From NCBI GenBank assembly GCA_038659295.1, contig JASNGC010000002.1, positions 434,001 through 498,000 on the forward strand: DNA of 64,000 nucleotides, written 5' to 3'. A program made the position numbers and the translations under genes. Under the pieces are notes generated by a model, which searched no databases, was not told where the DNA came from, and saw only the letters and a program-made list of their open reading frames with translations. Source of the stretch: Enterocytospora artemiae. Its lineage: Eukaryota > Microsporidia. This document shows, piece after piece, positions 41,784 to 61,945 of this stretch (positions are counted from its first letter, which is position 1; the number at the start of each line of letters is the position of its first letter).

Positions 41784-41972
41784 ATGAGTATTAGAAAATG
41801 TGACTTTACAATGAGACCGATTGAGCCAAGGGACAGGGCCAGTGTCCAGATATTGTTGGCAACATTAGATAACAAGGGGTGTGCAACAGGCGAAGTGGAG
41901 GTTGTTAATGTTTGTGGAGAAATTAGAAGGACTGGAGAAGTCGATGCACTTCTGTCGGAAAGGGAGCTTTAA
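41784..41972 (+). CDS. RPS21: Ribosomal protein eS21
   Basis: 62 residues, shorter than the usual 80-87. IRKCDFTMRPIEPRDRASVQILLATLD and VCGEIRRTGEVDALL follow the eS21 pattern (P-R-K-C-S..I-x-x-x-D-H-A-S-I-Q, then C-G-x-I-R-R-x-G-E-x-D). The C-terminal extension is missing. It sits on the 40S head/platform near mRNA exit. The ATG is preceded by CACCCAAG. Confidence 0.92.
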   Translation: MSIRKCDFTMRPIEPRDRASVQILLATLDNKGCATGEVEVVNVCGEIRRTGEVDALLSEREL

Positions 41973-56337: not shown

Positions 56338-56480
56338 AAAAACGCTTTGCAGCGTTAGCGGAAGGCCATTCCACTTTGACAAATCGAATTGTGTTCTACT
56401 AGATGGACGAGTCAATTCTAGCATCCAACCTACCTCCGTCGGGACGTCATCGGTAAGAACCCCTGCGCAAGGATGGGTGC
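56338..56480 (-). ncRNA. Candidate structured RNA gene in a GC-rich island
   Basis: About half G+C in an AT-rich genome and with distinctly non-random structure. Reading the minus strand: a foldable 5' region, GTGGAA/TTCCGC (six pairs) around TGGCC, then AACGCT-GCAA-AGCGTT, a six-pair hairpin capped by a GNRA tetraloop and followed directly by TTTTT, a Pol III-style 3' end. The plus strand holds CCCCTGCGCAAGGATG (56460-56475), identical to the internal stem-loop region of U6 snRNA, but no ACAGAGA box is seen. Identity is open: divergent snRNA, other small RNA, or remnant of a foreign element. The 5' end is not determined. Confidence 0.45.
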
Positions 56481-56643
56481 AAAAACAAACAAACAAATTA
56501 TAGAACCACAGGTAATAATTTATTGTAAATTTCAATTCAAAGAAGAATAGAGTAACAAGCTCTTACTGGACTTTAGCTTGGATCTCTCTATTTTTTGCAG
56601 TTTTATAAGTCGTAAACTAAATGTTTAACATGAAGGATAAACT

Positions 56644-58709: not shown

Positions 58710-59918
58710 TTATTTGTCACTTATATTGTTTTTATTTTCGGATCCAAAGTCGAACTGTGAGTGCTTTCTTGTTTTGTTCAAACCCGCAATAATATTGTAA
58801 TCACATTCAAAAATAGAACTATTTCGATATTTCAAGAGACCCAGGTCACGACTGGTACTCAGGTGCCTGCTCAAATCAGACTTGAAGACTGGCTTGTTTT
58901 CAAAGTATGGGTGATTTAAGAGTGTATGAGCTTGAGCCCTCTGAAGATAGAATGGATCTATTGCACACAAAATCAAGTCAGTGAGCAGCTCCGCTTCTTG
59001 TGCATTAACAATCTTTTCGTTGATTTTCTCTACCATGTCCGAGATAACAAATTTATTGCCGGTTATCTTTGTCTTGTAGATCCCCTCTACTTTGTTAAAG
59101 TATTTTGCGGTGTTTTTTCCATGGTCAAGCATCATTATTGGGAAGGCACTGCCAAAAAAGTCGTGAATCCGGTTGATTTGATCGCAGTTGTCTTTTCCAG
59201 GAAACAACGGATCACCACATATCATCTCGTAAGCAATGCATCCAAAGGACCACATATCAACCATGTTTGTGTAAGGAATGCCCAATATAACCTCTGGTGC
59301 TCGATAGTATCTAGATTGGGCATAGAACACCGTACACATCGTTTTTGTGCTGGACGAGCTAAAATCTATAATTTTAACCTTGTGATTAAATGGGTCTGAA
59401 AGGAGAATGTTCTCAGGTTTAATATCCCCATGAGTAATTTGTCTCCTGTGCAGATGATTTAAGCTCGTCAGGATTTGTTCAAACACATTTCTCAACAATA
59501 TTGATGGAAGTCCCATATATTTGGTTAATTTCAGCATATCCAACACACTTCTGTTGAGTAACTCCATTACAATACACAAATGACCATTGAATAAAAAGCC
59601 ATCCAGAATTTCAACGAATGAATCCGTCAGACCCTGTTCTTTCAACATTTTCAAAATTCTTATTTCATGTAACTCGTATTGATAATAGCGTAGCTCATTC
59701 TTAATCACCTTTATTGCTACTTCATCTCCGTAATTGCTGACACATCTAAATACCTGTCCAAACGTTCCTTGTCCAAGCTTGTCAATGACAAGGTAATCCT
59801 TGTCCTCAGACATCTTAAGTCTATCACCTTTGTATACTACAAGATTTTTTTCGATATTATCACTTGTAAATCCTACTTTCTGTGATGGGTTTGTTAGACA
59901 AACGCGATGCTGAGACAT
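58710..59918 (-). CDS. YAK1: YAK1/DYRK-family protein kinase with altered DFG
   Basis: 402 residues, mostly kinase domain. Gly loop LGQGTFGQVF, Lys70 in VAIKVIK, catalytic loop HGDIKPENILL (His163-Gly-Asp165, DYRK-like in lacking Arg), APE as RAPEVILGIPYTNMVDMWSFGC, typical of Yak1/DYRK. Two departures: the magnesium-binding DFG is DFS (185-187) and the first Tyr of the activation-loop YxY is Val (V-F-Y), the second being Tyr199. Possibly reduced activity. The ATG at 59918 is preceded by TGCCCAAA. Confidence 0.85.
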   Translation of the reverse strand: MSQHRVCLTNPSQKVGFTSDNIEKNLVVYKGDRLKMSEDKDYLVIDKLGQGTFGQVFRCVSNYGDEVAIKVIKNELRYYQYELHEIRILKMLKEQGLTDSFVEILDGFLFNGHLCIVMELLNRSVLDMLKLTKYMGLPSILLRNVFEQILTSLNHLHRRQITHGDIKPENILLSDPFNHKVKIIDFSSSSTKTMCTVFYAQSRYYRAPEVILGIPYTNMVDMWSFGCIAYEMICGDPLFPGKDNCDQINRIHDFFGSAFPIMMLDHGKNTAKYFNKVEGIYKTKITGNKFVISDMVEKINEKIVNAQEAELLTDLILCAIDPFYLQRAQAHTLLNHPYFENKPVFKSDLSRHLSTSRDLGLLKYRNSSIFECDYNIIAGLNKTRKHSQFDFGSENKNNISDK

Positions 59919-60700
59919 TTTGGGCAATTTTAACAGAGCTTTTGTTAGAAATAATACTTGAAGTTGAAAAATTTGGATACATTAAGAGCACCATGGAATT
60001 CGATGTATATCATTCCACTCGTACTACCACTTGAGTGCTTTAACTTCATATCGTTATAGTAAATTAATTTTTTCATATATGAACTACAAATATATTAATT
60101 TTTTTATAAAAATTTGTTGAAAATTACTAGTATTAAGTCGGTATGTCCATTTTCTGCGATGATGGAGAACTTAGATTTGGGCTGGCCAAAACTGTCAAAG
60201 TATTTTTGTCAATAATTTTCCTAAGCATGGATATTAATAATCAGGATTGATTAAAAAACTATGAAAATTGAGAATATGTATTAATAGATGTTTACTTACT
60301 ACAGTTGGGCAAACAATGGCAATCTGCAAGATATAATATATCTTTTGATCAAAACATAGTTGCATATGCTAAAGAACAGTAGTAGAATAAATTTAATTAT
60401 TTTATTGAACGAATCAACTAGCTTCAAAAGTTTAATCTCAACAGTAACGGATATATCCCATTATAAAAAGCAAATATGTCAGCTTATCGAATAATATCTC
60501 TCCAATATCTAATCCAGTACAATGTTAATTCTTTGGATCTGAACTTATAGTCAAAAATAAAACTATAGATACTAAAAGTCTAACTCCCACTTAAATGATT
60601 ATAACAATTATATCGTTATCAAATATAGAAATTCAAACCTATGAGAAAAATGCTACTCAAACAAATCGGAATATTTTCTTAAACCAAAGAGAACATACAT
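59919..60700. other. Long gene-poor AT-rich spacer, 782 bp
   Basis: One of the two longest gaps. Only a 35-codon plus-strand frame (60143-60250) is notable; no RNA gene recognised. Confidence 0.5.
60143..60250 (+). CDS. Possible micro-protein, 35 aa
   Basis: Starts MSIFCDDGELRFGL and has a hydrophobic helix (TVKVFLSIIFLS) near the end, like tiny tail-anchored subunits of membrane complexes. Ranked low: no start motif and no family match. Confidence 0.18.
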   Translation: MSIFCDDGELRFGLAKTVKVFLSIIFLSMDINNQD

Positions 60701-61945
60701 TTAATTATAGGTTAAATATCTCGGAGTTGACGAAAACTTGCTTCCCTCCTTGATAACCTTGTCTACTGCTTTAAAGAAATCATCTTCGGTAGCTATCTTT
60801 CTCCTTTCTCTTATCGCAAACATCCCAGCTTCGATGCATACTGATCTCAGCTCGGCGCCAGTTGCCCCATTGCACAATCTTGCAAGAAGATCAAAACGAA
60901 TACTCTTCTCAACACTCATTGTTCGGGCATTGATCTCCAGTATCTTCACTCTCCCCTCAAGGTCGGGCAGCCCAAACTCTATTTTTCTGTCCAGTCTTCC
61001 TGGACGCAGCAATGCCGGATCAAGCGTGTCAGGCCTATTAGTGGCCATCAAAACCTTGACATTCCCACGGTTATCAAACCCATCCAATTGATTGATCAGC
61101 TCCAGCATTGTTCGTTGAACTTCATTGTCTTCTCCATCTCCAAAACGAGTTCCTCCAAACGCATCAACCTCATCAAAGAATATTATACAAGCTTTTTTGG
61201 TTCTAGCAAGGTTGAAAATCTCTCTGACCATCCTAGCACCCTCGCCCACATACTTCTGGACCAATTCAGACCCTATTACTCTGATAAAGCATGCCTCGCT
61301 TCTATTTGCAACTGCCCTTGCTAAGAGTGTCTTACCAGTACCAGGTGGTCCATAAAGCAACACCCCCTTCGGAGGATCTATTCCTAGATTTATAAACTTG
61401 TCTGGATTCAGAAGAGGTTCTTCCACAACCTCTCGAATTTTTTCAATTTCGTCTTTACACCCTCCTATATCGTTATACGTGACATCAGGCTTATCTTCTA
61501 CCTGCATTAATGTGACTGACGAGTCTATTTTTCTTGGAAGAGGCAATATTATCGAGTACTTCATTCTATCAACCCCCACACGCATACCCTCAGAAATCTC
61601 ACTATGATCGAGTTTTTTGGATTTACTCACAATGAATTTGGCCATTTGTCGAATACTTATCATATACTTTCCATCTCCAGACCCCTTAAGAATTTTCACG
61701 ACCTTTGCAACCTGAAGAGGATGATCCTGGGACAGTGAAGCTTTATCTCTCGCCAAATCCCATTGATTTGGAGGTGCCAACCCCGTCTCGACCTCTTTTG
61801 TTCCAAGCTTTAAGTTGATTTTGTCTTGAATGCTCACGATTGTCCTTTCCAGCATATTTATTTCTGCTGCATAATAATTCTTGCTGAGATTTAACACCAT
61901 GCCTATTTCTGTTTCGTCCATCAGCGGCTTCTGTTTGGAGTCCAT
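60701..61945 (-). CDS. RPT1: 26S proteasome regulatory ATPase RPT1
   Basis: 414 residues. RPT1-specific [18 protein letters not shown] at the N-side, then the AAA+ module: Walker A GPPGTGKT, Walker [13 protein letters not shown], second region of homology [22 protein letters not shown], and C-terminal TYN tail. It unfolds substrates for the 20S core. Start at 61945, preceded by GCCCCAAA; 23 further open codons upstream lack an ATG. Confidence 0.95.

Follow-up and report, generated by a model that had tools for sequence, protein, structure and literature searches.

The GC-rich block at positions 56338–56480 of the 64,000-nucleotide stretch of Enterocytospora artemiae DNA analyzed here (hereafter, the window) raises the question of whether it holds an RNA gene and, if so, which one. 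The initial annotation, made from the letters alone, saw in it a structured small-RNA gene of the minus strand, offering a new small RNA, a divergent snRNA and a transferred fragment as options. Its general reading is borne out by our analysis. Among the options, the divergent snRNA stood, whereas those of a new small RNA and of a transferred fragment gave way to an end-to-end match to the U4 model and to both U4/U6 helices formed with the organism's own U6. To judge by its sequence, the block is very probably a divergent U4 spliceosomal RNA gene on the minus strand, and thus a known kind of RNA.

The composition that first drew attention to the block was described accurately as roughly half G+C, the value being 50.3% for 56338–56480 and 35.4% for the window, and 0.9% of all 137-nt windows match or exceed the GC content of 56338–56474. 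Stable-RNA genes tend toward GC richness in AT-rich genomes, and the stretches of the window that are free of long ORFs contain four GC islands, two of them tRNA genes, one the gene for ribosomal protein S21e and one the present block. The S21e island (41813–41967) was considered as another RNA and ruled out on account of this gene, whose ORF is easily overlooked under the usual ORF length limits.

The Rfam covariance search that the annotation had proposed, run on the window with an E-value threshold, returned U4 (RF00015) at 56474–56343 of the minus strand (26.6 bits, E = 3.7e-4), in an alignment that extends from the first to the last position of the model (1–138) with a mean posterior of 0.67 and a poorly aligned central part. 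In the whole genome (3.0 Mb) the block is the top U4 match (26.6 bits, E = 5.8e-4), with a lead of 14 bits over the other three matches listed (12.4, 11.2 and 10.9 bits), and within the sensitivity of the search used it is present once. The score does not reach the Rfam gathering score for U4 (46 bits), which is a database cut-off and not a biological trait; a default Rfam scan therefore misses the block, and at the gathering thresholds the window yields two tRNAs and nothing else. Matches to U6, mir-1284 and sR10 in or near the block were discounted, as their E-values were 3 or more. Prokaryotic contigs scanned for a 20-mer of the block gave no match, and the 19 loci found in viral contigs with the stem II 15-mer had no U4-like K-turn by eye in the 75 bases taken from each.

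The evidence that carries this identification is the pairing with U6. The organism's own U6 lies on another contig and scores 57.6 bits, above the Rfam cut-off. Its sequence AGCCCCUGCGCAAGGA and the UCCUUGCGCAGGGGUU of the block make up stem II, in which 15 of the 16 pairs are Watson–Crick and one is G-U. Stems II and I occur in the right U4/U6 order with the K-turn stem-loop between them, and a joint fold of the two RNAs reproduces both helices as well as the stem-loop. When the block is folded together with the organism's own U6, −26.3 kcal/mol is gained; the corresponding values are −6.0 ± 2.9 in a set of 98 random stretches (best −14.4) and −5.7 ± 3.1 in a GC-matched set of 100 (best −13.8). 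By best-duplex energy with U6, the block (−52.7) is not separated from 297 random stretches (mean −38.5, best −61.8); this is a poor statistic, for which reason we relied on the co-folding gain and give both. The 13-mer CCTTGCGCAGGGG occurs in exactly two places in the genome, the block and antisense to U6, with one more place at one mismatch. U4 and U6 are complementary in stem II by function, which accounts for another early observation: the plus strand does carry the reported 16-base match (CCCCTGCGCAAGGATG, 56460–56475), identical to the Rfam U6 consensus throughout and to the organism's own U6 over its first 14 bases, yet it looks U6-like because it lies opposite the U4 strand engaged in pairing with U6. 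Its interpretation as a U6 internal stem-loop does not hold, since the sequence is complementary to U4 stem II and no remnant of U6.

The remaining parts follow in the order known for U4, that is, stem II strand, 5' stem-loop with K-turn, stem I strand, central region, linker and 3' stem-loop (Table 1). In the K-turn, a C-stem CUUACC/GGUAGG with one G-U pair is followed by the bulge GAU, the tandem GA/GA, the stem CGU/ACG and the loop CCCG, and we predict from this sequence that it is the Snu13 site. The possible central stem-loop overlaps stem I by one base, its first G, with which the count for stem I ends. Of the hairpins noticed earlier, the terminal one is as described (AACGCT-GCAA-AGCGTT, six pairs, 56356–56341, minus strand), and so is the TTTTT end at 56342–56338, which shares the last two hairpin bases. 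The second one exists, but AGTGGAA-TGGCC-TTCCGCT (56375–56357) has seven pairs, one of them G-U, and not six. Folded alone, the block behaves like its shuffles (z = 0.00, with 98 of 200 shuffles as good), and the hairpins by themselves are thus no evidence, while the pairing with U6 is.

Table 1. Features of the proposed U4 gene and related loci; positions are those of the window unless a locus is named.
Feature	Position	Strand	Remarks
U4 snRNA gene (proposed)	56338..56474	-	about 137 nt; putative RNA 5' end near 56474, putative 3' end near 56338
Upstream element CCTGTGG	56506..56512	-	at -38; CCTGTKG in U2 at -35, in U6 at -36
TATA-like box CTATAAT	56497..56503	-	behind the upstream element
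U4 strand of U4/U6 stem II	56458..56473	-	UCCUUGCGCAGGGGUU; 16 pairs with own U6
5' stem-loop with K-turn	56429..56457	-	from sequence and cofold
U4 strand of U4/U6 stem I	56418..56424	-	AUGCUAG; pairs with UUAGCAU of own U6 over 7 bp, one G-U
Possible central stem-loop	56386..56418	-	GAAUUG/CAAUUC, six pairs; by eye, absent from the minimum-energy cofold
Sm-like linker (putative)	56378..56385	-	GAUUUGUC; expected place, non-canonical
3' stem-loop	56357..56375	-	7 pairs, one G-U; as in the U4 3' stem-loop
Terminal hairpin, GCAA loop, into TTTTT	56338..56356	-	Pol III-like end
Ribosomal protein S21e gene	41784-41972	+	62-aa ORF; Pfam PF01249, E = 1.5e-14
Own U2	1501-1674 of locus L007 (G000:C3)	-	52.0 bits
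Own U6 ACUGAGA	1534-1540 of locus L001 (G000:C1)		Rfam consensus there is ACAGAGA

The Sm site expected before the 3' stem-loop of U4 is of the type RAUUUUUGR. In the own U2, GAUUCGUC lies directly before stem III, with AAUGUUGG also present as an alternative, and it is possible, from the two sequences, that U2 and U4 have a lineage-specific Sm site in common. Stems IIb and III of that U2 have no canonical Sm U-run between them, and a hairpin and T4 stand at its end. The own U6 and the two tRNA genes in the window run into T5 as the block does; outside long ORFs, about 0.4% of positions start such a run. The T5 end suggests, without proving it, that the RNA would be a product of Pol III.

Upstream of U2, U6 and U4 we found CCTGTKG, then 0–4 bases, then a TATA-like CTWTWWW, the distances of −35, −36 and −38 being those from the start of CCTGTKG to the respective model starts. 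The combined pattern matches six places in the genome and its reversed control eight, and it is therefore not enriched as such; the three snRNA genes are among the six by construction, because the pattern was written from them. The other three places fall within ORFs (269, 569 and 799 codons), and an Rfam scan of these loci gave one weak and unrelated match (E = 4.1). CCTGTKG has a density in the window (10 per 128,000 strand positions) close to the 8.9 expected by chance. The informative part of the promoter evidence is position and not pattern frequency: at its density in the window, the chance of finding CCTGTKG within three bases of −36 is approximately 5e-4, as reckoned after the motif had been seen. 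The first listing of shared words and the promoter pattern likewise came after the three genes had been looked at, and a random-triple test carried out later is fairer. When the 60 bases upstream of each gene are compared and one column at most may vary, the longest word that all three have at matching places is seven bases long. Among 1500 random triples drawn from non-ORF stretches, 9 reach this length, none of the nine with a word as GC-rich; in a second run, 0 of 400 triples reached a seven-base word with four or more G/C. These data leave room for a tentative, on balance doubtful, generalization, namely that a single type of promoter, with CCTGTKG and a TATA-like box near −36, serves U2, U4 and U6, which also share T-run ends, that all three are made by RNA polymerase III, and that U2 and U4 carry a lineage-specific Sm site, GAUUYGUC.

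Other parts of the spliceosome were sought in the same genome. The U2 exceeds its Rfam cut-off. The Rfam model of U5 gave no match in the own genome; the U5 loop pattern GCCTTTYAYY occurred at 34 places (46 for the reversed control), of which 30 were tested for a closing stem (best, 3 pairs) and the other four judged by eye, and the combination of CCTTT and GATTYGTC gave 7 places against 10 for its reversed control. For U1 the best match had 14.1 bits (E = 0.43), and none was seen by eye in one stretch of each of two loci. A search with the Nop domain (Prp31, Nop56, Nop58) led to two proteins, both closer to Nop56/Nop58, which is a weak negative for Prp31; Prp3 was not found either, also a weak negative, the search controls being silent too. 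In 242 kb (the window and partly overlapping loci of the own genome), two strict intron matches and four lines of first-exon candidates, at three places, were obtained, none convincing; one of these candidate first-exon introns is antisense to SIN3. Missing splicing parts are to be expected, because strongly reduced microsporidian spliceosomes have been published, Encephalitozoon cuniculi having 30 spliceosomal ORFs and U1 not identified according to PMC3629993, and because some microsporidians have lost all introns (PMC10245619). The latter source also covers the mikrocytids, which are unrelated and similarly reduced and whose identified snRNAs, as given there, are U2, U4 and U6, the identical trio found here. 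A further observation concerns the own U6, which has ACUGAGA in place of the ACAGAGA of the Rfam consensus. At the 5' splice site, the changed base is the one that lies opposite position +4 (PMC11732430), and its U would pair with a +4A; the intron consensus of E. cuniculi is GTAAGT (PMC2483917).

One rival explanation is that of a decayed pseudogene, derived from U4 and no longer working, as in a lineage that is losing splicing. The low U4 score and the lack of a canonical Sm site would suit it, as would the failure to find U5, U1, Prp31 and Prp3 and the total intron loss of some microsporidians (PMC10245619). However, the two strands that pair with U6 are intact, as is the K-turn, the promoter element has been kept, and the block is the only clear U4 in a genome whose U6 and U2 are present above cut-off, so that we regard decay as very unlikely. 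A different, new noncoding RNA that pairs with U6, e.g., a guide or a regulator, would account for the long pairing and for a central region and Sm linker that match U4 poorly; it would leave unaccounted for a match that covers the whole U4 model, the two helices, K-turn and 3' stem-loop in U4 order, and the lack of any other U4 among our matches, and is hardly credible.

Two more readings can be set aside with near certainty. Taking the plus strand for a divergent U6, or for a fragment of one, would explain the exact 16-base consensus match, yet as a U6 the plus strand has 11.2 bits (E = 6), which depend on that 16-mer. It has neither ACAGAGA, whose absence from the inspected surroundings of the block agrees with what had been stated, nor a match to the full model; the real U6, at 57.6 bits, is elsewhere; and the complementarity of U4 and U6 predicts the match in any case, which brings the probability of this reading close to nil. 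The minus strand is indeed open, over 82 codons from stop to stop (56562–56317) and not the 73 reported, but a protein-coding role has a practically negligible probability, as the frame extends across the promoter as well as the end of the RNA, and Pfam gave no significant match for it (best E = 0.04, below the cut-off). The frame looks incidental. A single-copy microsporidian U4 snRNA gene on the minus strand, with an snRNA-type promoter of its own, is with very high probability the best explanation of the block.

The sequence, the complementarity to the own U6 in two helices, the K-turn sequence and the upstream element common to U2 and U6 are direct observations. By analogy with established U4 biology, on which its expression, RNA ends, protein binding and function are all modeled, we propose that the RNA would pair with U6 through stems II and I and keep it inactive in a U4/U6 particle, that the K-turn, placed between the two helices, would serve as the binding site of Snu13 and the 3' part as the seat of the Sm ring, and that the helicase Brr2 would unwind the duplex, setting U6 free for splicing catalysis.

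As for the neighborhood of the gene, which lies between SIN3 and the syntaxin gene, the YAK1-like kinase of the window is closest to microsporidian proteins (49% identity in Vittaforma corneae and 48% in Glugoides intestinalis). A 273-amino-acid protein assigned to an oribatid mite, Medioppia subpectinata, joins a piece of this kinase to one of the proteasome-type ATPase of the window (both within 58710–61945), with 143 of 146 residues identical to the ATPase and 92% identity over 25% to the kinase. From this similarity, it probably belongs to a very closely related microsporidian, present in the mite sample as a contaminant or an infection.

Reduced spliceosomes help to show which parts of splicing are dispensable, and an overlooked U4 would pass for a loss. 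Complementarity to the own U6 and the shared upstream element recover a U4 that the default Rfam threshold misses, by a route that can be used in other microsporidian genomes, and through the T5 end and the element common to U2, U4 and U6 it becomes testable whether this parasite makes its snRNAs with a single polymerase. Compared with the U4 of RF00015, the block agrees in the order of parts and the complementarity to U6, and differs in its low model score, its non-canonical Sm linker and an extra terminal hairpin running into T5; these departures, like the element in common with U2 and U6, are leads and not demonstrated novelties. A close parallel is offered by the nucleomorph U4 RNAs as described in PMC6461891, which cites Davila Lopez et al. 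2008 for the computational prediction of a nucleomorph U4: they too are divergent U4 RNAs of a reduced genome, found by covariance model and U6 pairing, with a shortened K-turn stem. Unlike the block, which is known from DNA, they are backed by small-RNA reads in that account, and the short K-turn stem of the block differs from theirs in consisting of three Watson–Crick pairs. The promoter, in turn, resembles those of vertebrate and plant snRNA genes, where a proximal sequence element and a TATA box are described (PMC1796607), in having an upstream element and a TATA-like box at a fixed distance that are common to U6 and other snRNA genes, although the element found here has a different sequence and lies nearer to the start, at about −36.
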